DNA from: Chthonomonadaceae bacterium
GTDB taxonomy: Bacteria > Armatimonadota > Chthonomonadetes > Chthonomonadales > Chthonomonadaceae
Reading direction: 5' to 3'
Length of the DNA stretch: 59,151 nucleotides
NCBI GenBank assembly: GCA_027459665.1
Contig: DAIDHN010000022.1
Location: 1 to 59,151, forward strand
The position numbers were made by a program, and so were the translations under genes. Shown piece by piece: positions 2,770 through 59,151 of this stretch (position 1 is its first letter; every line of letters starts with the position of its first letter). The notes beneath the pieces are model-generated. The model was not told the DNA's origin. It searched no databases and saw only the letters and a program-made list of their open reading frames with translations.

Positions 2770-2958
2770 TCAGTCTTTCAACCAGTCAGGATGGCGTCTG
2801 GCAATATAGACGTAACGGTCTATCGTACGGCCAGAAGTCATGTCAAACAGGGGTGTGCCACCTGCATACATTGTATCTTTGGGGTCTCCAAAAGTATTCA
2901 GCCCCTCCTGCCGAATGCGGCGGTCTATTGCGCGCTTCTGTTCTTCTGTAAGCTCCAT
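2770..2958 (-). CDS. Small conserved hypothetical protein, 62 aa
   Basis: The product contains GDPKDTMYAGGTPLFD followed by a conserved-looking SGRTIDRYVYIARRHPDW end. Short proteins with this pattern occur in several phyla from my memory of the family, but no function is established that I can name. I chose the start at 2958 because GAGGAG lies nine bases upstream of that ATG; a longer reading beginning at 2982 would place this ribosome site inside the gene. No signal peptide or membrane segment is seen. It sits between the GH4 gene and the S8 protease gene, all on the minus strand, with a TATATA-rich stretch upstream that may hold its promoter. Confidence 0.65.
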   Translation of the reverse strand: MELTEEQKRAIDRRIRQEGLNTFGDPKDTMYAGGTPLFDMTSGRTIDRYVYIARRHPDWLKD

Positions 2959-3030
2959 AGGTATCAACTCCTCATATATCATATGGGTAGACGTTTTGTA
3001 CTATATATACGTTTCATGCTGCGCATATTT

Positions 3031-4329
3031 TCAGTGCAGGGCAGGTATGTAACTGCCATGGGCAGCAAGAAGTTCATCTACCATCGCATAAATCTCATCC
3101 AGCGTCAGTTCTGCGCAGGTATGCGGGTCCATCATGGCGGCGTGGTACACGTGTTCTTTTTTTCCGGTGAGAGCCGCCTCTACTGTAAGCGACTGAACAT
3201 TGATGTTGGTTTGCATAAGAGCGGCAAGCTGAGGGGGCAGGCTGCCCACACGCACGGGTTGAAAACCGTTTTTATCTACCAGCACAGGCACCTCTACACA
3301 GCATCCCTGCGGCAAATTGTCGATCAGGTGCAAATTAGATACATTCCCGTATACCACTCTGGGCGTACCTGTTTCCATGCTGTGAATAATCAGAGAACCG
3401 TATTCGTGGCTGCGGTGAACCGTCACAGGTTTATCGCTTTCAAATTCCTGTTTCATCTTGTGCCAGCCGGCAATCTGGTTCTCACAACGCCGTATATACT
3501 CATCCAGGGGAACATTGAACCGTTCAATCAGCTCTGGCTTGTCCCTGCGAATAAAGTATGGGCAATACTCTGAAAAATGTTCAGAAGATTCTGTCACAAA
3601 GTAACCCAGGCGTGCCAGCATTTCGTAGCGTACTCTATTCCAGTCGGGCACTCTTCCTTCCTGCCGAACCTTGTGTATCAGCGGGTAAAGGTCTTCTCCA
3701 TTGCGTTCAAAGCGCAAATAAAATGCCATGTGATTGATGCCTGCACACAGGTAATTTATTTCTGCGGCAGGTACGCCAATATCGTGCGCCAGCTGCTCTG
3801 CCGTACCCTGCACACTGTGGCAAAGCCCAATCACCGGAACGCGGCTGGATACGGAAACAGCCCAGGTATTCATGGCCATAGGGTTCACATAATTGAGAAA
3901 CGCAATGTTTTGCGCAGAAACTTCCTCCATATCCCTGCACATTTGCAGCATCACCGGTATAGTGCGTAAAGCTCTCATAATCCCGCCAATGCCAAGAGTG
4001 TCTGCAATGGTTTGGCGCAGGCCATATTTTTTTGGTATCTCAAAATCTATTGCAGTCGCCGGTTGATAGCCACCTACCTGAATCATATTGATCGCATAAT
4101 CGGCGCCTTCCAGAGCTTCTTTCTGATTGGTATGCGCAGTAATAACCGGGCGAGCGCCCACTGCATCTGCCACCTTGTGCGCCACCACCTCAGAAGTGCG
4201 CAGACGTTCTTCATTGATATCCATTAACGCAATATGACTTTCGGCCAGTTCAGGAAACGAAAGTATGTCACCCATCAGGTTTTTGGCGAATACGGTACTG
4301 CCTGCACCGAGAAAAGTTATCTTAGGCAT
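3031..4329 (-). CDS. Glycoside hydrolase family 4 (alpha-galactosidase/alpha-glucosidase type)
   Basis: A GH4 enzyme of 432 residues, the normal length. GH4 enzymes hydrolyse glycosides by an unusual NAD+- and divalent-metal-dependent redox mechanism. The N-terminal FLGAGSTVFAKNL is the dinucleotide-binding loop, NYVNP (around N149) contacts the sugar, and C170 (LCHSVQ) with H200 (GINHMAF) are the expected metal ligands. The start at 4329 is preceded by GGGAG at seven bases; a reading back to 4488 adds residues unlike the family. It lies downstream of the GT21 gene on the same strand with a 64-base gap. MelA-like alpha-galactosidase or alpha-glucosidase specificity cannot be settled by eye. 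No signal peptide, so probably cytoplasmic. Confidence 0.9.
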   Translation of the reverse strand: MPKITFLGAGSTVFAKNLMGDILSFPELAESHIALMDINEERLRTSEVVAHKVADAVGARPVITAHTNQKEALEGADYAINMIQVGGYQPATAIDFEIPKKYGLRQTIADTLGIGGIMRALRTIPVMLQMCRDMEEVSAQNIAFLNYVNPMAMNTWAVSVSSRVPVIGLCHSVQGTAEQLAHDIGVPAAEINYLCAGINHMAFYLRFERNGEDLYPLIHKVRQEGRVPDWNRVRYEMLARLGYFVTESSEHFSEYCPYFIRRDKPELIERFNVPLDEYIRRCENQIAGWHKMKQEFESDKPVTVHRSHEYGSLIIHSMETGTPRVVYGNVSNLHLIDNLPQGCCVEVPVLVDKNGFQPVRVGSLPPQLAALMQTNINVQSLTVEAALTGKKEHVYHAAMMDPHTCAELTLDEIYAMVDELLAAHGSYIPALH

Positions 4330-4393: not shown

Positions 4394-5554
4394 TTAACCA
4401 GGCCGAAGCCTGCCGCCCCGTTCCACACGATATTTTCTGCCCCGCCACTCAATCGTGTTGGAAAGAAAGGAGGCAACATACAAAACAAATGAAAGCAGAT
4501 CGCTCAGGGGAAGCAGGTAGCAGTAGCGCCGCGGATTGGAATCGCCAGTGAGCCATGATGTGCAGAAAACTGCAGCAAAGCGCATCAAAAGCAGAACAGC
4601 CACTACCCAAGCAGCATAAGGGCCATGGCAGACAGCATACAGCAGTGCAATTGGCAGGCCGTGTGTAACCGCCATGCCTGCATATCCTCCAGGGCGGCTT
4701 GCCCGCACGGTACGCGCCCAGCGCAGCCTTCGCTTCCACATAGATGCCGCGCTTTCCCTCCCCATCACATCTTCAACCATACAGGCAGATATCTCCACCT
4801 CATAGCCTGCCTTGCGCACTCCGCTGCCCAGCAAATAGTCATCGGCAAGTTCATTTTGCAGTGGCTCCAGCCCCCCCATGGCCTGCAGAGCCTCGCGGCT
4901 TACTGCAATAGTCGCCCCAAATGCAAAACCTACTCCTTCCAGCATTCTGCTCAGCAGCGCTCCTGGTATAAAGTCGGCTCCAATGCCAACGGCCTCAAAC
5001 TGTGCTGCCATGCTTTGTGTAAGAAAGCCTCTGTAAGGGCAGGTAACCAGCCCTACTTTTGCATTTGAGTCGCAAAATGGCGCAGCAAGGTAGCGCAGGT
5101 AATTGGCAGGAACTCGCATATCGCTGTCTGAAAGAACCAGCAGTGAGTGTTTCGCCCGCGGATACATTAGCAGCAGGTTGCTTACCTTGCGATTTGGGGC
5201 AGGGGAGAAGTGCGGCGGCGCGCTCAGTACCTCTATATCCAGATGCGGGTACTCGCGCTGCATGCGGCGGGCAGTAATAAGCGCCGGGTCTTCAGTATCG
5301 AGGGCACAAAACAGCAGCTGCAGTTTGTCTGCAGGGTAATCTTGCTCGCAGAAGCTGCGAAAATTGGCTTCCACCTCGGCATCTACCCCGCACACCGGTT
5401 TGAGCAGGGTAAAGCTTGGCAGTTTCTCTGCTGCCGGCTGGCGCGTACCCCGTTTCCATTGCCACACAGCCAGCAGCGAAAGCAGTGTATAGACAGTCCA
5501 GGCAAACAGGCCGGCAAGCAACAGGCGCTGCAGCAAAAAAAGCAGGTCATTCAT
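4394..5554 (-). CDS. GT21-type membrane glycosyltransferase (ceramide glucosyltransferase / HpnI-like)
   Basis: A 386-residue membrane enzyme with an N-terminal helix (about 5-30) and two or more C-terminal helices (about 293-370). The GT2/GT21 pattern is complete: D86 in ALDTED, D143 and D145 in LSDSDMRVP, the ADDY acid pair at 238-239 and RRLRW at 275-279. This family moves a sugar from a nucleotide donor onto a lipid, either ceramide or, for HpnI, bacteriohopanetetrol (GlcNAc transfer). Which lipid applies here cannot be read from the sequence, and no squalene-hopene cyclase or sphingolipid gene is in the window. The gene follows the SMR-like transporter gene by 37 bases and probably shares its operon. 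Confidence 0.85.
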   Translation of the reverse strand: MNDLLFLLQRLLLAGLFAWTVYTLLSLLAVWQWKRGTRQPAAEKLPSFTLLKPVCGVDAEVEANFRSFCEQDYPADKLQLLFCALDTEDPALITARRMQREYPHLDIEVLSAPPHFSPAPNRKVSNLLLMYPRAKHSLLVLSDSDMRVPANYLRYLAAPFCDSNAKVGLVTCPYRGFLTQSMAAQFEAVGIGADFIPGALLSRMLEGVGFAFGATIAVSREALQAMGGLEPLQNELADDYLLGSGVRKAGYEVEISACMVEDVMGRESAASMWKRRLRWARTVRASRPGGYAGMAVTHGLPIALLYAVCHGPYAAWVVAVLLLMRFAAVFCTSWLTGDSNPRRYCYLLPLSDLLSFVLYVASFLSNTIEWRGRKYRVERGGRLRPG

Positions 5555-5591
5555 CTCTGCAAATCAATTCTCTTGTATAAACCGCTTTGTG

Positions 5592-5984
5592 TCAATGCGG
5601 CGCTCTTTCCCCCAGACCTACAACTACTACGCCAGCCATAATAATGCAGTACCCCAGCCATTTCAAGGGGGTCACATTTTCATGCAGATACCATTTCGCC
5701 AGCGCACCGCCCACAACAAAAGAGAGCGCTGTAAGCGGCAGTACAAAACTGAAGGGAGCTATTTTGAGTGCTGCCATGTAACAGCCGAAATAAAGAGCCA
5801 TCAGCGCAGTGCCAGAGAGCACATAGCGATTGGTGATAATAGCTCCAATCTGCTGCAGCAGCGTGCCGTTTCCTGTTTGCTTCATTCCCTTGCTCAGCAG
5901 CGCTTCTCCCAGCGAGACGGCCAGCACTGCTGCCAGTGTAATCACGGCAGCCTTCCATTTTTCAGGGGTCAATAGTTTCCTCAC
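5592..5984 (-). CDS. Small multidrug resistance/EamA-like membrane transporter
   Basis: A 130-residue protein with four hydrophobic segments (about 12-30, 48-68, 74-95 and 105-125), the size and layout of SMR-type half-transporters that work as dimers. Similar small DMT proteins (ArnE/ArnF-like) often sit beside lipid glycosyltransferase genes and are thought to move lipid-linked sugars across the membrane. The start is GTG at 5984, giving a four-base GTGA overlap with the end of the upstream GH63 gene and therefore translational coupling. The GT21 gene follows by 37 bases. A flippase-type role with the GT21 enzyme is inference from this order; drug export is the alternative. Confidence 0.75.
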   Translation of the reverse strand: MRKLLTPEKWKAAVITLAAVLAVSLGEALLSKGMKQTGNGTLLQQIGAIITNRYVLSGTALMALYFGCYMAALKIAPFSFVLPLTALSFVVGGALAKWYLHENVTPLKWLGYCIIMAGVVVVGLGERAPH

Positions 5985-48774: not shown

Positions 48775-51700
48775 GTGCCCCGTATTTTCGACAATATTGA
48801 GCAGAAGCTGCTTGATGCCCTGCAGCAGACACTTTCTCTCTCTACGCATGCTGACTTTTGCGTGGGCTATTTCAATCTGCGCGGATGGCGTCATTTGGGC
48901 GGTCGGATGCAGGAATGGGAAGGCGGAAAAGGAAAATGCTGCCGGCTGCTGATAGGCATGCAGAAAACGCCTGCCGAAGAGCTGCGCGAACTGATGAGCA
49001 TGACCGCAGAAGAACAAACTATAGACAATGCCAGGGCAAAAGCATTGTGCGATCAGCTTGCAGTAGAGTTTCGTGATCAGATTACCCTGGGGTTCCCCTC
49101 AAATGAAGACGAAAAGGGGCTGCAGCAACTGCTGCTGCAGCTGAAAACAGGCAGGCTCTGCGTAAAACTGCACTTGCGACACCTGCTGCATGCCAAACTC
49201 TATCTGCTCTACCGCGATGACCCCAACAACCCCATCACAGGATTTCTAGGCAGCAGCAACCTCACCTTCTCCGGGCTGAGCAAGCAGGGAGAACTGAATG
49301 TAGACGTACTTGACCAGGACGCTGCGGGCAAGCTTGCACACTGGTTTGAAGACCGCTGGAACGACAAGTGGAGCATAGACATTAGCCAGAGCCTTGTAAA
49401 ACTGCTGGAAGAAAGCTGGGCGCGCACCGACACGCTGAATCCCTACCACGTCTACCTCAAAATGGCGTGGCATCTCTCAAGAGAAGCGCGCGATGGCATG
49501 GCAGACTTTCAGCTACCCCCTGACATTGCAAAAAAACTGCTTGACTACCAGGAGGCGGCAGTAAAAATTGCAGCAAGGCATCTTGACAGGCGCGGAGGCG
49601 TGATTATAGGCGATGTGGTGGGGTTGGGCAAAACGCATATGGCCGCCGCACTTGCCGCCCTGTTTGAAGAAGACATGGGCGGCCAAACCCTTGTGCTTTG
49701 CCCAAAAAACCTTGTACCCATGTGGCAGGATTATATTCACCAGTACCGCCTGCGCGCCAGGGCCCTGCCCTACACCATGGCAGACAAAGAGCTGCAGAAT
49801 ATGCAGCGGTACCAAATTGTACTGATGGATGAAAGCCACAATCTGCGCAACAGGGAAAGCAAAACATGGCGTGCCATACATGAGTATGTGCAGAAAAATA
49901 CCAGCAAATGCATTCTGCTTACGGCAACCCCCTACAATAAATCGTACCTCGACCTTTCCAGCCAGCTGAGGCTTTTTCTGGATGAAAAAACCGATTTGGG
50001 CGTAAGGCCAGAACGGATGCTGAAAGAACAGGGCGACAGCACGCTTGCAGAACGGGAAATATCTCCTCACAGTCTGGCAGCATTTGAACTCTCCGAACAT
50101 CCAGACGACTGGCAAGAACTGCTGCGCCTCTTCATGGTAAGGCGAACCAGAACCTTTATACAGCAAAACTATGCCCTGGCCATCTGCCCTGCATGCCAGC
50201 AGGAGGCGCACTTTTTGCAAGGGTTTTGCAGCAAATGCCGCCAGCCCGCAGAACCTGAAAGAAAGTACCTGCTGCTGCCCGGCGGAAAGCGTTCCTGGTT
50301 TCCTGTCCGAACTCCATGCAACATCCCGTTTCCTTCTGGCAAACAGTACAGCATGCTCTACTCAAAGGCAGTAGTCGACTGCATCAACGACCTGCATCTG
50401 CCCAGGTACGGTCTGGATGACTACAAAACGTCTGCTGAAACGGCAAATATACCCGATGAGCAGCGAAGGATACTGGACGACCTTTCACGGGGAGGGACAA
50501 GGCTGATGGGCTTTTGCCGCACCAGCCTGTTCAAGCGTCTGGAATCTTCGGGAGAGGCATTTCTGCAAAGCGTGCAAAGGCACATTCTGCGCAACTCTGT
50601 TTACCTTTACGCCCTGCAGCAAAACCTGCCCCTGCCCCTTGGCACGCAGGATGCCGAAATGCTGGCCGCCGATTTCAACGACAATGACATCGACAGGAAA
50701 CTGCCCGAGGAAGATATAGAGGAAGATGCAGAACCAGCGGATGATGGGCTGAACCTGCGGGCGGAAGACCTCTACAAACTGTACCGCGAACACTACGAAA
50801 AACGCTTTCGCTGGCTGCAGCCCCAATGGCTGCAGCCGCTGCTGAAAAAACATCTGGAAGAAGACAACCAGAAACTGCAGAGCATTCTGCGCTTGTGCCC
50901 CGAATGGAAAGTAGAGGAAGATACCAAACTGCAGGCGCTGCAGCATCTTGTTATGCAAAAGCACGCCAATGAAAAGATACTGGTTTTTACGCAGTACGCA
51001 GACACTGCCGCCTACCTCGAACGTGCGCTGACGCAGGCAGGGGCAACAGCCCTCAAAAGCGTTACCGGCAATTCTGAAAACCCCGCCGAGGCCGCCTGGA
51101 AGTTCTCGCCCCAAAGCAACGGCAAAAAGGAGCAGTATCCGCTGCATGAGCAGCTGCGCGTGCTGATTGCCACCGATGTGCTTTCAGAGGGACAGAACCT
51201 GCAGGATGCGGCCATTGTAGTAAATTACGACCTGCCCTGGGCAATCATCCGCCTCATACAGCGCGCCGGAAGAGTAGACCGCATAGGCCAGCAGGCCGAC
51301 CGCATACTCTGCTATTCTTTTTTGCCCGACGAAGGAGTGGAACAGATCATACAGCTGCGCAGCAGGCTGATGACCCGCCTGCAGCAAAACGCCGAAGTAG
51401 TAGGCGCCGACGAGCAGTTTTTTGAGGAAGAGCAGCAGATAGCGCTGCACAACCTCTACAGCGAACAGGCAGGCATACTGAATGATGCGCCCGATACCGA
51501 CGTAGACATTTCTTCGTATGCCTGGCAGATATGGGTCAACGCCATTGCTGCAGACCCGAAACTGGAGGGTATTGTGCCGAACCTGCCGCATGTAGTGTAT
51601 GCAACGCGGCCGCACAGGGTATCTCCTGCACAGCCCGAAGGCGCACTGGTATACCTGGAAACCGCAGCAGGAAACGATGCGCTTGCCTGGGTAGACAGGC

Positions 51701-52194
51701 ACGGCAAAAGCGTTACCGAAAGCCAGTACGCCATACTGCGAGCGGCCGAATGCACCAGAGACACCCCCTCGCTGCCCCGCCTGCCCGAACACCATACACT
51801 GGTGAGGCAGGCAGTGACGGGCATGCTGCAGGAAGAAACAGTGGCTGCCGGTGCGCTTGGCAAACCATCGGGCGCACGCTGGCGCACATACATGCTGCTG
51901 CAGAAATATCTGGAAGAAGAAGAGAGGCAGCGCACCCTCTGGTCTGGTTCAGACGATGCAAGGCTGCTGAAGCACGCACTCGAACTGATCTACCGCAGCA
52001 GCCTGATGCAGCAGGCGGCCGACCGGTTGAACCGCCTGCTAAAGCGCGAGGTTCAGGCGCACGATATAGCAGAGGCAGTACTGGAACTCTACAACCACAG
52101 TCAGCTCTGCATACCTGAACAGGAAGCCCGGCGGCAGGAGCCGCGCATACTCTGCTCTCTGGGGCTGGCCGCGGATGAAGGAGTACAACAGTGA
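48775..52194 (+). CDS. PLD-nuclease / SNF2-type helicase protein, restriction-like
   Basis: A 1139-residue protein. The N-terminal part (about 20-200) has a phospholipase D nuclease motif, H139-x-K141 (LLHAKLYLLYR) with GSSN at 159-162. A DEAD-like SNF2 helicase follows: Walker A GDVVGLGKT (279-287), DESH (352-355), LTATP (382-386), then VLIATDVLSEGQNLQDA and LIQRAGRVDRIGQQ in the second lobe. A zinc-ribbon insert has cysteines 471, 474, 485 and 488. The last 300 residues are helical. GTG start at 48775 with AGGAGG six bases upstream; the stop overlaps the methylase start (GTGA). ATP-driven DNA translocation and cleavage of unmodified DNA is the inferred job, akin to DISARM or type I/III logic. 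Confidence 0.88.
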   Translation: MPRIFDNIEQKLLDALQQTLSLSTHADFCVGYFNLRGWRHLGGRMQEWEGGKGKCCRLLIGMQKTPAEELRELMSMTAEEQTIDNARAKALCDQLAVEFRDQITLGFPSNEDEKGLQQLLLQLKTGRLCVKLHLRHLLHAKLYLLYRDDPNNPITGFLGSSNLTFSGLSKQGELNVDVLDQDAAGKLAHWFEDRWNDKWSIDISQSLVKLLEESWARTDTLNPYHVYLKMAWHLSREARDGMADFQLPPDIAKKLLDYQEAAVKIAARHLDRRGGVIIGDVVGLGKTHMAAALAALFEEDMGGQTLVLCPKNLVPMWQDYIHQYRLRARALPYTMADKELQNMQRYQIVLMDESHNLRNRESKTWRAIHEYVQKNTSKCILLTATPYNKSYLDLSSQLRLFLDEKTDLGVRPERMLKEQGDSTLAEREISPHSLAAFELSEHPDDWQELLRLFMVRRTRTFIQQNYALAICPACQQEAHFLQGFCSKCRQPAEPERKYLLLPGGKRSWFPVRTPCNIPFPSGKQYSMLYSKAVVDCINDLHLPRYGLDDYKTSAETANIPDEQRRILDDLSRGGTRLMGFCRTSLFKRLESSGEAFLQSVQRHILRNSVYLYALQQNLPLPLGTQDAEMLAADFNDNDIDRKLPEEDIEEDAEPADDGLNLRAEDLYKLYREHYEKRFRWLQPQWLQPLLKKHLEEDNQKLQSILRLCPEWKVEEDTKLQALQHLVMQKHANEKILVFTQYADTAAYLERALTQAGATALKSVTGNSENPAEAAWKFSPQSNGKKEQYPLHEQLRVLIATDVLSEGQNLQDAAIVVNYDLPWAIIRLIQRAGRVDRIGQQADRILCYSFLPDEGVEQIIQLRSRLMTRLQQNAEVVGADEQFFEEEQQIALHNLYSEQAGILNDAPDTDVDISSYAWQIWVNAIAADPKLEGIVPNLPHVVYATRPHRVSPAQPEGALVYLETAAGNDALAWVDRHGKSVTESQYAILRAAECTRDTPSLPRLPEHHTLVRQAVTGMLQEETVAAGALGKPSGARWRTYMLLQKYLEEEERQRTLWSGSDDARLLKHALELIYRSSLMQQAADRLNRLLKREVQAHDIAEAVLELYNHSQLCIPEQEARRQEPRILCSLGLAADEGVQQ

Positions 52195-55100
52195 ACATCA
52201 ACCGCCAGAATGCGCGGCGATATCTGCAGGAGTTTGATTTTGCAGGGCTGTTTACCCAGGTACTGGGCTGGAACCACAGCAACAGAACAGTGCGGGTGCA
52301 CATCGACGGCAGGGGGTATGTGCTGCGCGCTTTTGCAGAAAAAAAAGGCGTGCTTGCGCTGACGTGCGAATGCAGCGCCGAAGAAGACATGCCGCAACAT
52401 TCGCAGCGCCGAAAAATTGAGCGCGCGGTCTCAAAACAGGTGCACGAGCATTTTATCGTGTTTGCCTGCAGCGCAGCCGGAGAACAGGTGTGGCAGTGGA
52501 TACGGCGCAGGCAGGGAGAGCCGGAACAGTGCCATGAGCGCAGAATGAATACGGGCATGCAGAGCGGTGAACTGCTGCTGCAGAGCCTGGACGAACTGTG
52601 CATCTCGCTGGAAGAAGAAGAAAGCCTCTCGCTTTATGCGGTAACTGGCCGCCTTACACGCGCCTTTGATGCAGACAAGGTAACCAAAAAGTTTTATGAC
52701 CAGTTTTCTGCAGAGCACAAAGGGTTTCTTGATACCATAGAGGGCATTGCCGGCGGGGAAGACCGATCATGGTACGCCTCGGTTATGCTCAACCGCCTTA
52801 TGTTTCTCTACTTCATTCAGAAAAAGGGGGTTCTCAACGGTGAAACCGACTACCTGGCAGACCGTCTGCGGCAAATGCAGCAAACACACCCAGGCCGCTA
52901 CTACGACTTCTACCGATTTTTTCTGCTGCGTCTGTTTCATGAAGGGCTGGGACAAAACCCCGAAGAGCGCGAAACAGATCTGAACCGCGAACTGGAGATG
53001 CTGCTGGGCAGGGTGCCTTACCTGAATGGGGGCATTTTTGCACAGCATGCGCTGGAACTGCGCTACCCAGGCATACAGGTACCAGATGCTGCATTTGAAA
53101 AACTGTTTGCTTTTTTCGACCGCTATACCTGGCACCTGGATGACCGGCCCCTGAAAAACGACAGCGAAATAAACCCCGATGTGCTGGGGCACATTTTTGA
53201 AAAGTACATCAACCAGAAACAGATGGGAGCCTACTACACCGGTGAAGACATTACAGGCTATATCTGCAGCAACACCATTTTGCCCTGCCTGCTGCAAAAA
53301 GTAGAGAAACAATGCGCCATTGCCTTTCGCGAAAACGGACCGCTGTGGCAAATGCTGCAGCAAGACCCCGACCGCTATATATACGATGCCCTGAAAAAAG
53401 GCGCCGAACTGCCGCTGCCCCCGCAAGTAGAAGCCGGCCTGCAGCGCATTGAGGCGAGGGGAGAATGGAACCGCGCTGCGCCCGAAACGCATGCCCTGCC
53501 CACCGAGATATGGCGTGAAACCATTGCGCGCCGAAACAGGCTGCAGCAGCTGCAGGCAGCGCTGCGCAGCGGCGAGGCATGCAGCCCGGATGATCTGGTT
53601 ACCCGCAACCTCAATATACGCCAGTTTGTGCAAGACGCCATAGAGCAGTGCGAAGGCGCAGAAACATTGCTGGCATTCTGGAATGCGCTGCAGAATATGC
53701 GCATTCTCGACCCTACCTGCGGGTCGGGGGCGTTTTTGTTTGCGGCCCTGCGCATACTGGAGCCACTGTATGAAGCCTGCCTGCAGCGGATGGAAGATTT
53801 TACCAAAGATTTGGCCACCCCGGAAAAAGAGCGCCCAGGCGCGAGCAGAACGGAATTTCGGCTCGTACTGCAAAACCTGCTCAGTCACCCCAGCCGCCGC
53901 TACTACATACTCAAAACAATTATTGTACGCAACCTCTACGGCGCAGACATTATGGAAGAGGCAGTGGAAATTTGCAGGCTGCGCCTCTTTCTCAAACTTG
54001 CCTCTCAGGCAGCGCCCAGCCCCGAAAAGGCGAACATGGGGGTGGAACCGCTGCCTGACGTAGACTTCAACATACGGGCAGGCAACACGCTGGTGGGCTA
54101 CGCGACATTGGAAGATATAGACCGCCTCTGGGCGGTGCATGGAAGGCTGGGGTTTGAAAGAGACAGGGAGAAGCTGAAAATGCTGGCCGATGAGTATGCC
54201 CTGCTGCTGGAGGATTTTCGCAACACCCAGCTGGGGCTGCCTGCGCGCCGGAAAACAGCTAAAGCCGATGTGGTACGCGCGGCAGACAGGGAACTTCGCC
54301 CTGAACTTAACAAGGAACTGTGGAGGCTTTATCGAGAGGCAAATCTCCTGCCCGAAAAAACATCGCTGGAGGAATTTCAAAAGACGCATCTGCCATTCCA
54401 TTGGTTTGCAGAATTTCCGGAAGCCATGGCGCACGGAGGCTTTGATGTCGTGGTGGGAAACCCGCCCTATGTGAAGCAAAAAGATATAAAAGAGTATAAA
54501 GTATCAAAATACGAAACTGGAAAATGCCCCGATATCTATGCCCTCACCCTGGAGCGCAGCGTAAAACTCTGCCGGCAAAACGGAAGAATAGGCATGATTG
54601 TGCCCATCTCGCTTACTTTCAGCAGGGAATATTCCACTCTGCGCAAAATGCTCCTCCCATATGCTCCAACGTGGATTTCCTCGTATGACATTATTCCTGC
54701 GTCGATATTTAATAACGCAAATCAGCGCTGCACAATCTGGCTTGCGTGCAAAAGCAGCACAGGCAGCATGCACACCGCACCTATGCGCCGGTGGAAAAGC
54801 GTGTATCGTTCCTGCCTTATGCAGACTACTGCGTATACGCCCTGTGCAGAAGGCAGCTGCCAAGAGGCAGGCTATGCCAAGCTTGCCGATTCAGCACAAT
54901 CCCGTATTTATGCGCTTTTGCAGAGGCACGCAGGTGATTGGCCAAAGCTAGGCGCAGCACAACTGGGCTTCTCCACTTCTGCCCGCAACTATCTGACCGC
55001 TTTTTTAGAAGCCCCCCCCTGCCTGCATGCCGACACCCTGGCGCCATTGCCAAGCAGCAAGATTGGTCAGATTGCAATGCCAAATATGCACAAGGCTTTT

Positions 55101-55646
55101 TGCTCTCTTGTGTTAGCCTCCGGCGATTTGTGCCTCTGGTACTGGCTGGCAGCAGGCGATGGTTTTGATGTCACCAAAGACGTGCTCGTTTCCTTCCTTG
55201 CTGCGTTTCAAGGCATCGCTCCCGAGGCAGAAATGCTCGCCGAACTGGGCAGCGGCATGCACACCAGAAGGTTCGAGTGTATCCATCTTAAAAAGAATGC
55301 AGGGCTTTATGTAAGCAGTTTCAATTTTCGCCGGCTGCCTGCCTATATACGCCGCGCCGACCTGCTGGCCTGCTCATGGCTGGGGGCAGGGCGAGAAGAT
55401 ACGCTGATGCTGCTGGATTATATGGTGCGTGTGCTTTCTATTAATAACAAAACAGGGGATAAAGCAATTCCACATTCTGCGAAAGCGCTGTTTCCTCCAC
55501 TGCCGGTAGATACTGCAGCAGAAAGCGCCCTGTTTGCCCGCATAGACGCACACCTGTGCCGGCAGTTTGGTTTCACCCCGGCTGAACTGGAATTTCTGAT
55601 TAGCCATGATACGCGCTACCCGGACTGGGAAATGGGCGGTGAATAA
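52191..55646 (+). CDS. Large Eco57I-type N6-adenine DNA methyltransferase
   Basis: A 1151-residue protein. SAM-binding motif I is DPTCGSGAFLFAALRIL (from about 507) and the catalytic motif IV is NPPY (757-760, VVGNPPYVKQKD). The N-terminal 150 residues (FAGLFTQVLGW... VLRAFAEKKGVLALTCECS... EHFIVFA) form a small domain of restriction-enzyme look; WYASVMLNRLMFLYFIQKKG and GAYYTGEDI are conserved in PglX/Eco57I-like enzymes. The C-terminal 350 residues probably recognise the DNA target. The GTG start overlaps the helicase stop by four bases. It is expected to mark self DNA for the partner; a cleavage activity of its own is not excluded. Confidence 0.9.
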   Translation: MNINRQNARRYLQEFDFAGLFTQVLGWNHSNRTVRVHIDGRGYVLRAFAEKKGVLALTCECSAEEDMPQHSQRRKIERAVSKQVHEHFIVFACSAAGEQVWQWIRRRQGEPEQCHERRMNTGMQSGELLLQSLDELCISLEEEESLSLYAVTGRLTRAFDADKVTKKFYDQFSAEHKGFLDTIEGIAGGEDRSWYASVMLNRLMFLYFIQKKGVLNGETDYLADRLRQMQQTHPGRYYDFYRFFLLRLFHEGLGQNPEERETDLNRELEMLLGRVPYLNGGIFAQHALELRYPGIQVPDAAFEKLFAFFDRYTWHLDDRPLKNDSEINPDVLGHIFEKYINQKQMGAYYTGEDITGYICSNTILPCLLQKVEKQCAIAFRENGPLWQMLQQDPDRYIYDALKKGAELPLPPQVEAGLQRIEARGEWNRAAPETHALPTEIWRETIARRNRLQQLQAALRSGEACSPDDLVTRNLNIRQFVQDAIEQCEGAETLLAFWNALQNMRILDPTCGSGAFLFAALRILEPLYEACLQRMEDFTKDLATPEKERPGASRTEFRLVLQNLLSHPSRRYYILKTIIVRNLYGADIMEEAVEICRLRLFLKLASQAAPSPEKANMGVEPLPDVDFNIRAGNTLVGYATLEDIDRLWAVHGRLGFERDREKLKMLADEYALLLEDFRNTQLGLPARRKTAKADVVRAADRELRPELNKELWRLYREANLLPEKTSLEEFQKTHLPFHWFAEFPEAMAHGGFDVVVGNPPYVKQKDIKEYKVSKYETGKCPDIYALTLERSVKLCRQNGRIGMIVPISLTFSREYSTLRKMLLPYAPTWISSYDIIPASIFNNANQRCTIWLACKSSTGSMHTAPMRRWKSVYRSCLMQTTAYTPCAEGSCQEAGYAKLADSAQSRIYALLQRHAGDWPKLGAAQLGFSTSARNYLTAFLEAPPCLHADTLAPLPSSKIGQIAMPNMHKAFCSLVLASGDLCLWYWLAAGDGFDVTKDVLVSFLAAFQGIAPEAEMLAELGSGMHTRRFECIHLKKNAGLYVSSFNFRRLPAYIRRADLLACSWLGAGREDTLMLLDYMVRVLSINNKTGDKAIPHSAKALFPPLPVDTAAESALFARIDAHLCRQFGFTPAELEFLISHDTRYPDWEMGGE

Positions 55647-56058: not shown

Positions 56059-56637
56059 CTAAATATCTTGGGGATAAGTGATCCGGAGTTTACGCCCTGG
56101 ATATGCAGCCTTCGGTTCGTTTTTCCACTCGACTTCTACAACAACGGATTGATTGATGGCCTCTGCCAGCTGAACACAATTTCTCCAGCTCACAATTGCA
56201 TCGACGCCTTGAATGGAGATATTTGCGCTTTTAATGTAAATGTAGCCTTTCTCTTGGTAACGCCCTTTCTTTATGTTGGCGTTTGTCGACTCTTGTAATT
56301 TCTCAAAGTTACCAAGACGTTTCAAAACCTCCTTATGTGCAAGCCGATGCAATTCATTCCAATTAGGTGGTAATAATTTGATGCCAGCAAATTCGGCATT
56401 TATTATACGGGTAAACTTCAGGTCAATCTGTCTAATCGTATCTATGTCGGTAGGCTCGTTATCCTGGGCTAACAATGGCTCACAAACTTTTGTAGAGGTG
56501 TTGCGCTTTGGGTAAGGCACACCCCGCTGCGCCGCATCTACAAGCCGATCCAACAGCGTGTCGAAAGTGTCTTCTAAAGGAATTGCCAATTCTTGCAGCT
56601 TCTGCATGGTGGAGTCGGATATTTGAATCTGTGGCAT
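56059..56637 (-). CDS. Unknown 192-aa protein with possible ribbon-helix-helix N-terminus
   Basis: The first 35 residues, MPQIQISDSTMQKLQELAIP... DTLLDRLVDAA, look like a ribbon-helix-helix strand and helix pair as in SeqA-N or antitoxin-type DNA-binding proteins. A polar linker follows. The C-terminal domain (about 85-190) has LLPPNWNELHRLAHKEVLKRL, KGYIYIKSANISIQGVDAIVSWRNC and VVVEVEWKN, a pattern I recall loosely from small proteins near restriction genes but cannot name. No membrane segment. It is convergent with the methylase gene, and TATAAT with a distant TTGACG lies upstream. A regulatory or DNA-binding role is inference. Confidence 0.6.
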   Translation of the reverse strand: MPQIQISDSTMQKLQELAIPLEDTFDTLLDRLVDAAQRGVPYPKRNTSTKVCEPLLAQDNEPTDIDTIRQIDLKFTRIINAEFAGIKLLPPNWNELHRLAHKEVLKRLGNFEKLQESTNANIKKGRYQEKGYIYIKSANISIQGVDAIVSWRNCVQLAEAINQSVVVEVEWKNEPKAAYPGRKLRITYPQDI

Positions 56638-56926: not shown

Positions 56927-57444
56927 TCAGAAAGCAACAGAACAGGCGTTTTTATTTGCCAGATCGGCGAGTTGGCTGCGAAGGCTTTTGCGCAGGTTTC
57001 TAGCATACATCTTTTCTGAAGGGTAATTATCCGGCAGTTCTTCCAGGTCCAGCCCGCTGATGCCGCAGTGCCCTGCTGCACCGGGCCTGGCATCTGGTAA
57101 TTCTGTGCCTGGCATAAAAAGCCAATCCCAGATCACGTTCAGAACAGGGGATATTTCTGGCACATCGGGGTCTGGCCTGATGCTGCGAAGGGCATCTACC
57201 TTAAAAATGCATATTTCTGATAGCTGCCGGCATTTGCCTGCACAAACCCAAGCGCTTCTTCTACAGTAGTGCGCGTGCGTTCCCACACCGAGAGGAGTTT
57301 GCGCCGAGTCGCCTTGTCGGCAGATGAGAGCTGGAAAAACTCTTCAGATATCTGCTTATCCTTCGAGAGCTTGAACAGCCGAAATACCTCTGCATCCGAA
57401 GGAAGAGGCTGCCCATCCACGCTGCTGTGCATCCGGCTCTCCAT
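56927..57444 (-). pseudogene. Third gene of the TIGR04255-type operon, frameshifted
   Basis: Two frames join into a protein of about 172 residues. The first gives MESRMHSSVDGQPLPSDAEV... VWERTRTTVEEALGFVQANAGSYQKYAF and then stops; the second continues KVDALRSIRPDPDVPEISPVLNVIWDWLF... to SVAF. The switch is at a TTTTT run near 57200; one more T would give AFFKVDALRS in a single frame. It may be a true mutation, a reading error, or a -1 slip (the heptamer is not a canonical one). No family recognised; the first half is helical, the second Pro/Asp-rich with DWLFMPGTELPD. It starts three bases after the previous stop, so it belongs to the operon. Confidence 0.6.
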
Positions 57445-57447
57445 GTT

Positions 57448-58002
57448 CTAGAACAGAGCGCTCCATTTTTCAATCGCTTCTTCGGGCAGGTCTTCCCCTT
57501 GCGAATACTCTATCCCCCAGAACTTGCCGGTATTTCTGTTGCGATAGAAAAACTCCATCGGCGCGCCCGCAATGAATTCCAGTTCGAAATGGTGCTCCTC
57601 CTTGTTCCAGGTGTACAGAAGCTCTCCATTCGGGCCAGGGGCAGCATCGGGTACAGGCAGGGTTTTACCGGTTTTTTCGAGGAGTTTGCATTTGCAATCC
57701 TTCCACATCTTCCAGGCGGCCTCGGCTGTTTCAGGGGCAATTTCGCCTTGAACGCGTATGGCCGTCAGGTAATGGTAAAGATGCTGCTCACGAGCAAGCT
57801 CATGTTCTGCAGGAAGGTCACCGTTCCCAGTGACTTTCAGGCCGGTGGCGCCCTGCTGGTTTCGCTCTGGCTCGTACTGCACCGTGCCACCAGCGATGTC
57901 CTTACTGAGCGGCAGGCTATACGGAGGGTGCGGAAGGGTAATTTCCAGGCTGCTCCCGCTGGGGGGCGGCTGGCTGCGTGCGCTGTATGCGGGAGGTATC
58001 AC
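57448..58002 (-). CDS. Unknown protein encoded with the TIGR04255-type gene, 184 aa
   Basis: No family is named with confidence. The N-terminal 30 residues are Pro/Ser-rich (PPAYSARSQPPPSGSSLEITLPHPPY). The middle is helical with LAREQHLYHYL and AAWKMWKDCKCKLLE. The C-terminal part, PNGELLYTWNKEEHHFELEFIAGAPMEFFYRNRNTGKFWGIEY, is a beta-rich unit of a type I recall from genes next to TIGR04255 proteins. The ATG overlaps the upstream stop by four bases, so it is coupled to the TIGR04255-like gene. No membrane segment or catalytic motif is seen. Confidence 0.65.
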   Translation of the reverse strand: MIPPAYSARSQPPPSGSSLEITLPHPPYSLPLSKDIAGGTVQYEPERNQQGATGLKVTGNGDLPAEHELAREQHLYHYLTAIRVQGEIAPETAEAAWKMWKDCKCKLLEKTGKTLPVPDAAPGPNGELLYTWNKEEHHFELEFIAGAPMEFFYRNRNTGKFWGIEYSQGEDLPEEAIEKWSALF

Positions 58003-58748
58003 AGCAATTCACCCTTCAGCAGCTTTTTCAGTCTGCCGCCTGTGGCGGCATCAAATACCTTCCAAATGTGTTCATGCATGCTGTCGGCTTCCTGCATAAC
58101 CGCCTCTGTTTCCACCGGGGTTTTTCCCTCCACGCCTCTATCAATGTCCAGTATAAACGGTGGCCCCGCGTCTGCATTGGGCGAATAAAGTTCTCCAGTG
58201 GTTACGCCAATGCGGTTTCTTTCATCCAGACGCACCTGCACAACAGAAGTAAACCCGGTTTTTGAGTTGAGTATGCTCCGGGGAATATAATCGGTAGGAA
58301 CAAGCCATTCTCCAAGAGTTTCCTGCTGCTGCGTGCGTTCAATGCGATTTATGTACCGCAGGCCCATATACATGACTTGTGATGGATTTATCACAGAGAC
58401 AACATTTTCCCAAACACCTTGAATTACTTCCCGTACAGCCTTCCATCCGGGGTAGGGCGCAAGCACATTCAGCAACAGTTTGTTTTGTGTGAGATGCAGA
58501 TAGCGCCTGGAATCGCTGCTGCTGTAGCGAATGATCGAGAGGGGTATTGCTGCTGCCTGAACAGGGCTGCCAACCTGTGCTTCCACGTTGATTGTTACCG
58601 GTTCAAAACCAGGATAGCGGTCTGATACCAAGTTGTAAAATTCGCCGAACCACTTGGGGCTCCATACAGTACCCGCCTGCAATTCAAAGGTAATGTCGCA
58701 CAGAACTTCCTGTACAATCGGGTTGGGGTACTCAGGATGTTCATCCAT
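57999..58748 (-). CDS. TIGR04255-like family protein
   Basis: A 249-residue protein of the sporadically distributed TIGR04255 type. The opening YPNPIVQEVLCDITFELQAGTVWSPKWFGEFYNLVSDRYPGFEP and the middle YMGLRYINRIE with a C-terminal FILDIDRG and MHEHIWKVFDAATGGRLKKLL are the pattern I associate with this family. Members are about 250 residues, soluble and without known activity. AGGAG lies about 12 bases before the ATG at 58748. It is the first of three minus-strand genes and has a complex upstream region (tandem repeat and dyad). A defence or toxin-antitoxin type function is a guess from its patchy spread and location. Confidence 0.75.
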   Translation of the reverse strand: MDEHPEYPNPIVQEVLCDITFELQAGTVWSPKWFGEFYNLVSDRYPGFEPVTINVEAQVGSPVQAAAIPLSIIRYSSSDSRRYLHLTQNKLLLNVLAPYPGWKAVREVIQGVWENVVSVINPSQVMYMGLRYINRIERTQQQETLGEWLVPTDYIPRSILNSKTGFTSVVQVRLDERNRIGVTTGELYSPNADAGPPFILDIDRGVEGKTPVETEAVMQEADSMHEHIWKVFDAATGGRLKKLLKGELL

Positions 58749-58892: not shown

Positions 58893-59151
58893 TTTGATAG
58901 CAGCCGGTTGCTCCACGGGGTTGAAACCCCGTGCTGATACGCCAAGCCCTCTTCGAGGGCTGCAGAATTTGCTGCCGGGCTGTACCAGCCTTCTGCGCCC
59001 CTCTTTCAGCGCCGACACGCGCTGGCGGCAGTGGGCATGCAGAGCGGTATGGTGCATTGTGCATTTAGTCCACACCGTGGACTTTTGCCTGTCAGAACGG
59101 GGTTTCAACCCCGTGGCATAAGGCCGGGGTGAGGCTGCATTGAGTGGTAGG
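58893..59151. repeat. Right palindromic repeat module of the accessory region
   Basis: CACGGGGTT-ga-AACCCCGTG (58914-58933) is a 9-bp hairpin that matches the block at 59101 in reverse orientation. AGCCCTC-ttc-GAGGGCT (near 58944) and GTCCAC-acc-GTGGAC (near 59069) are further hairpins. CCCCTCTTTCAGCGCCGA (58998-59015) and GGTTTCAACCCCGTGGCATA (from 59101) repeat the left module in direct orientation. No gene is seen to the window end. Confidence 0.7.

Follow-up and report, generated by a model that had tools for sequence, protein, structure and literature searches.

TIGR04255 proteins appear to organise a widespread family of putative three-component toxin-antitoxin modules, one member of which carries a broken toxin gene in Armatimonadota

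The closest working analogues of the operon described here are the TAC (toxin-antitoxin-chaperone) systems, among them HigBA1-SecB(TA) of M. tuberculosis and the anti-phage CmdTAC. TAC systems have three genes, in which one accessory protein is found with toxins of the HigB, MqsR, HicA and ADP-ribosyltransferase families, and their antitoxins carry an extra segment that is without sequence similarity between systems (PMC5105189, PMC11618068). In CmdTAC, a capsid protein of the phage dislodges CmdA, the antitoxin, from its chaperone CmdC (PMC11618068). Panacea (DUF4065) is one constant family of hyperpromiscuous antitoxins joined to many unrelated toxin domains (PMC8832971). The NetFlax survey, by its own statement, covers two-gene systems only (PMC10440598), and an arrangement such as that of TIGR04255 could therefore have been missed.

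The operon lies near the right end, on the minus strand, of a window of 59,151 bases (the whole stretch of DNA that was analysed, which is also the contig itself). Like the TAC systems, it has three genes, with a constant accessory protein, varied putative toxins and a system-specific extension of the proposed antitoxin. However, the accessory protein here is a TIGR04255 family protein that has no SecB sequence match and is encoded first, and the extra antitoxin segment, for which we infer the binding, is N-terminal rather than C-terminal. Since there is no SecB match and the extension is N-terminal, we do not claim TAC membership. One constant family with many unrelated toxins is also the likeness to Panacea and NetFlax, although the constant protein here comes as a third component, with an antitoxin that appears to change along with the toxin. 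In relation to the NCBIfam subfamily TIGR04255, which carries no activity assignment, gene 1 is a member, and the operon rule is what the present analysis adds.

Gene 1 (57999-58748, minus strand, ATG start) encodes a protein of 249 aa and overlaps by 4 bases with gene 2 (57448-58002, minus strand, GTG start), which encodes the proposed antitoxin of 184 aa. A gap of 3 bases leads to gene 3, the proposed toxin. The original prediction had described this layout of three minus-strand genes, and it stands, except that gene 3 is not one frame down to 56927. A small co-directional gene 2 directly before gene 3 is the order of type II toxin-antitoxin systems, and the relatives are arranged likewise. 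The resemblance of gene 1 to TIGR04255 was confirmed with an NCBIfam match of 117.8 bits (E 6.6e-34; model positions 2-251 of 252), against a curated model cut-off of 30 bits. Genes 2 and 3, which had been called unrecognised, indeed have no family match that holds in Pfam, NCBIfam, PADLOC or PHROGs, and for gene 3 this includes the absence of any recognised toxin family in these four collections. Pfam gave no match to gene 1 even when E values up to 1 were admitted, hence there is no recognisable SecB, and the DUF4065 domain of Panacea is also absent, genes 1-3 being without any Pfam match. Not one component model of PADLOC-DB 2.0.0 was matched by the three genes at E up to 1, and sequence comparison with solved structures gave chance-level matches only. 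TIGR04255 had zero mentions in the 5.39 million open-access papers that were searched. Next to the operon, at the contig end, about 200 bases (58915-59114) are flanked by the palindromic 18-mer ACGGGGTTGAAACCCCGT in inverted orientation. Across the genome there are 27 perfect matches to this 18-mer, many of them near contig ends, compared to 0 for the reversed control, and it resembles a small dispersed repeat element.

The predicted structure of gene 1 was a confident model (pLDDT 87.6, pTM 0.85) of long antiparallel strands and two long helices. The best matches of this model were AdoMetDC/prozyme, TBP and the guanidino kinases. As all of these are weak (TM 0.41 or less), no function can be read from the fold. 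SecB was not among the Foldseek or VIA matches listed for the model, an absence that is compatible with a SecB fold.

We observed that the second and third genes recur together. Gene 2 was found by search in 11 of 291 Armatimonadota genomes (10 besides that of the window), with gene 3 directly after it in 11/11, which exceeds what chance would give, and TIGR04255 directly before it in eight; in a ninth, G052, both contigs end where TIGR04255 would precede gene 2. In Planctomycetota, genes 2 and 3 are also found together in Singulisphaera and a Gemmataceae bacterium, and in Cyanobacteriota they are found in three Microcoleus/Oscillatoriales genomes; gene 2 further has homologs on two phage contigs. 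In the cyanobacterial copies, gene 2 is preceded by TIGR04255 (62.7 bits in L057). In Singulisphaera acidiphila (L056), an unrecognised gene of 257 aa (4970-5743, plus strand) overlaps gene 2 in the TIGR04255 position, and this gene may be a very divergent TIGR04255 relative, though it has no family match. Single-sequence searches of plasmids and viral contigs with gene 2 gave no matches, whereas a profile built from five relatives detected homologs where single-sequence searches had not. Since the trio recurs in other phyla, the three genes form a transferable unit; TIGR04255 is not obligatory in it, since L017, L020 and L060 have genes 2 and 3 without TIGR04255.

A restriction-like pair had been noted in the same segment, and family matches were obtained for each of its two members. 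These are a PLD-SNF2 helicase of 1139 aa (48775-52194, plus strand; Helicase_C, SNF2, PLDc_2) and a type IIG-like restriction/methyltransferase of 1151 aa (52191-55646, plus strand; PADLOC REase_MTase_IIG 826.9 bits, Eco57I 4e-30). The two genes, which together span 48775-55646, overlap by 4 bases, and the pair is a recurring candidate for a separate restriction system. The helicase was present in 31 of the 291 Armatimonadota genomes and the gene-2/3 pair in 11. The earlier expectation that the partner genes would recur across phyla and near defence genes was borne out, as they are found in three phyla and, in three genomes (G000, G032 and G033, two of which belong to one genus), lie within a few kilobases of the same helicase-methylase pair in three different arrangements. 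On plasmids, the surroundings of TIGR04255 loci included an abortive infection gene, VapBC, methylases and a multiubiquitin-ThiF-DUF6527 cluster. The window has a further gene (56059-56637, minus strand), placed between its methyltransferase and the triad, for a protein of 192 aa that matches the 'T4SS effector SepA family' of NCBIfam (156.5 bits against a cut-off of 110). The N-terminus of this protein is DUF7557-like, and its C-terminus resembles PADLOC HEC-06/Orf5 (1.4e-6).

TIGR04255 was present in 41/291 Armatimonadota, 21/194 Cyanobacteriota and 31/199 Planctomycetota genomes (about 11-16%), and loci were gathered from these three phyla as well as from plasmids and viral contigs. Among the 107 non-redundant loci having enough downstream sequence, a co-directional middle ORF was at the expected place in 105 and a third ORF in 102, while the same criterion gave 40/107 upstream and 36/107 antisense in the controls. 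Annotated trios were seen on plasmids of Klebsiella, Vibrio, Acinetobacter, Rhizobium, Mesorhizobium, Robbsia, Pseudomonas, Gloeocapsopsis and Chroococcidiopsis. Thus the neighbours of TIGR04255 genes are non-random, as the original prediction had supposed, but the partners are generally swapped, putative antitoxin-toxin pairs and not the same genes throughout. At one locus, L047, the TIGR04255 gene looks split across two ORFs.

The third genes fell into several clusters: QxCDL (36 loci), the superfamily of the window gene 3 (25), HEPN-like (7), another unnamed family (7), PIN (5 plus L036) and metallo-beta-lactamase (3), the rest being single cases. Pfam matches in this position included PemK/MazF (2e-13, L121), zeta (3e-12, L068), metallo-beta-lactamase (3e-10, L073) and PIN in L105 and L036 (E 7e-11 and 3.7e-5). 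Those to PemK, zeta and PIN are above the Pfam cut-offs, and the HEPN-like (2.4e-3, L024) and HicA-like (0.03, L130) ones are under the cut-off. The QxCDL family, the commonest third gene (e.g. L069, L078-L088, L091-L095), is undescribed and carries the motif QG(D/E)...(T/S)Q(S/T/D)CD(L/I); its middle partner is often an HTH-containing protein. In L041, inspection by eye found a retropepsin-like LVDTGSPWC segment, without a Pfam match, in the third gene (2876-3358, plus strand), which is possibly a protease effector in a TIGR04255 operon.

The family of the middle gene tracks that of the third gene; for example, 7/7 HEPN-like genes have the same middle family. The window genes 2 and 3 were remotely homologous, as a pair, to another middle-third pair, exemplified by L032, L090 and L101 (hhalign 1.3e-7 and 6.2e-6, compared to 0.28-0.95 for unrelated-family controls). 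Homology of the window gene 3 to QxCDL was unsupported when the two were compared. Mapped onto a maximum-likelihood tree built from 88 TIGR04255 proteins, the type of the third gene switches 24 times against a minimum of 9, and it is nevertheless clustered, no shuffle being equally low. Counting well-supported branches alone, the PIN label changes at least 4 times. The nearest relatives of the window TIGR04255 protein include L036, with its PIN pair (SH-aLRT 91 and 99), and in another supported clade MazF (L121), QxCDL, PIN and HEPN-like partners are intermixed. The third gene is swapped repeatedly among TIGR04255 operons.

L036 links these operons to an ordinary VapBC-like antitoxin-PIN pair. 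The third gene of L036 is 56% identical to the PIN of a two-gene pair on a plasmid of Nostoc sp. UHCC 0870 (L148), whose upstream neighbour encodes a protein of 94 aa. The L036 middle gene shows 51% identity to this 94-aa protein over its own last 40 aa. The N-terminal parts differ, and the Nostoc pair is without TIGR04255. The operon therefore seems to draw on an ordinary antitoxin-PIN pair, with a different N-terminal part on the antitoxin, and in at least this one case the middle gene is, judged by homology, an antitoxin. A part of the L105 middle gene also matches a Nostoc plasmid protein; as no PIN gene is annotated after the Nostoc plasmid copy, we left L105 out of the evidence.

Gene 2 of the window has a low-complexity N-terminal tail of about 67 residues, followed by a conserved domain (LPVPDAAPGP..LLYTW..EHH.ELE..EFFYRNR). 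The median tail length among gene-2 relatives was 67 where TIGR04255 is present (n=13) and 5 where it is not (n=5; p 0.009). The tails range from 38 to 145 residues with TIGR04255, one degraded copy excepted, and from 5 to 42 without it. In a TIGR04255 subgroup of 10 loci, which excludes the window locus, a Gibbs sampler found that the middle-gene tails have a short motif in common, approximately S-x-x-G-V-x-P, despite their different partners (log-likelihood 171.6 vs 143.4 +/- 3.6 in shuffles). The signal was weak in the other 94 loci (598.0 vs 564.5 +/- 11.1), and a tail motif general to all middle genes was dropped for this reason. Together, the tail lengths and the subgroup motif suggest that the N-terminal tail is a docking site for TIGR04255.

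When we examined gene 3, we observed that its first ORF (57196-57444, minus strand, 82 aa) corresponds to positions 1-75 of the gene-3 profile and ends at 57196, and that the conserved C-terminal half is in a different frame (56927-57253, minus strand, within the ORF 56927-57286; profile positions 65-160 match 56936-57253). The second half holds the conserved RPGA.GH.GI.GL and K.LR..LADLA segments. Intact relatives have a single ORF of about 147-180 aa that spans both halves, and for this reason we regard the window copy as frameshifted. The break is near a run of five T on the coding strand (about 57203-57207, minus strand). Programmed frameshifting at this run was considered and set aside. 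Mutation is simpler, since several relatives are unbroken and the other broken copies differ in the site and type of the break. Of the 11 Armatimonadota copies, five have a broken gene 3, with frameshifts in the window and L014 and stop codons in L015, L017 and L020, at differing places. In the 11 copies, gene 2 is unbroken, except that its start is unclear in L019; L019 is also the only copy in which gene 1 is broken, apparently by a frameshift. As gene 3 accounts for about 27% of the trio coding length, the chance that 5 of 6 or 7 breaks would fall there is roughly 0.01-0.02, computed post hoc. This excess fits a gene that is costly, and in some metagenome-derived copies assembly error is possible. 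The predicted structure of gene 3 (pLDDT 41.7, from 7 sequences) was too poor a model for reading a fold.

Taken together, these observations lead us to propose, with a probability of roughly 0.6, that the operon is a three-component toxin-antitoxin module in which gene 3 would be the toxin, gene 2 its cognate antitoxin and gene 1 a constant partner of many such pairs. The toxin-antitoxin assignment taken by itself is one that we hold with good confidence, because of the constant order of the genes, the swapping of the third gene between unrelated and in part well-known toxin families, the matched sets of middle and third genes and the L036 match. As to mechanism, TIGR04255 would bind the low-complexity N-terminal tail of the antitoxin and keep the antitoxin folded or stable, and losing this binding, for example through a competing phage protein, would release the toxin. 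The antitoxin-stabilising role is a more tentative proposal, falling slightly short of even odds. By analogy, we conclude that the TIGR04255 family would work like the SecB-dependent TAC systems, without a recognisable SecB. The module had originally been described as antiviral or toxin-antitoxin-like, and it is the second part that gains from known toxin families swapping into the third slot; the antiviral part is circumstantial. It had also been put forward as an undescribed, self-contained system. Undescribed and toxin-antitoxin-like it appears to be; however, as gene 3 is frameshifted, the module in the window is probably non-functional as sequenced and the toxin of the window strain probably inactive.

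We also considered whether the operon could be a defence system without constitutive neutralisation. TIGR04255 would then sense infection, gene 2 would act as an adaptor and gene 3 would encode an effector that does no harm before its activation. Such a combination of a constant sensor with swappable effectors is typical of abortive-infection systems, and it would suit both the plasmid copies that lie beside the multiubiquitin-ThiF-DUF6527 cluster, the abortive infection gene and methylases, and the triads that adjoin the helicase-methylase pair in three genomes. We think it unlikely, since several of the third genes are canonical type II toxins and one middle gene has its C-terminal end in common with the small partner in an ordinary PIN pair, both of which fit neutralisation and not activation.

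An enzymatic role for TIGR04255, in which it modifies the toxin or the antitoxin in a type VII-like manner, would make the structural matches of gene 1 meaningful: guanidino kinases, its best structural matches, align with Z up to 9.3 across about 190 residues, and AdoMetDC/prozyme with E 4e-5. But no TM-score exceeds 0.41, the fold pattern also matches TBP, a non-enzyme, and the invariant columns of the family (E14, C17, F21, Y132, I136, W148 and F232) are without an evident catalytic set and do not suggest a catalytic site, so that we consider this improbable. We assign similarly little weight to the cassette being a decaying or domesticated remnant that is functionless in the window strain, with TIGR04255 an unrelated regulator that is co-transcribed accidentally. 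Gene 3 is indeed frameshifted in the window and broken in four other Armatimonadota genomes. However, the window has unbroken copies of genes 1 and 2, an accident is hard to square with a family-wide fixed order and the exchange of partners, and a loss of function in a single copy is compatible with the three-component toxin-antitoxin explanation.

Two related viral contigs carry a gene 2 that is without the tail (L062, 5986-7149; L063, 4118-4552). L062 is a 146-kb IMG/VR contig with three tandem, divergent gene-2 paralogs, and one of the two contigs encodes a terminase large subunit (phrog_38, 6e-69). Gene 2 is 68% identical between the contigs and 40-44% identical to the cyanobacterial gene 2. 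Gene 3 and TIGR04255 were not found on these two contigs, the records of which may be fragments. A tail-less gene 2 standing alone on phage contigs is how phage-carried antitoxins would be expected to look, and these genes are possibly such antitoxins, yet this is not proof of an antiviral role. We give an antiviral role of the three-component module about an even chance on this circumstantial evidence. A broader and more speculative view, which we consider somewhat less likely than not, is that TIGR04255 proteins are widespread antitoxin-stabilising infection sensors, unrelated to SecB, which would act with a large set of interchangeable toxin-antitoxin pairs in anti-phage abortive infection from Armatimonadota to Enterobacterales plasmids, with phages answering by a stand-alone antitoxin.

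The window thus appears to hold one member, its toxin gene broken, of a widespread three-component toxin-antitoxin family that is organised around TIGR04255, a protein that is also encoded by plasmids from Klebsiella, Acinetobacter, Vibrio, Rhizobium and other bacteria. If the operon rule holds, many trios of 'hypothetical protein' genes would become candidate toxin-antitoxin modules, and new toxin families, including QxCDL and the superfamily of the window gene 3, would be directly testable. If true, this would be a second example, independent of SecB, of a shared accessory protein that controls many toxins, and it would offer a route to asking how the release of a toxin is coupled to infection.
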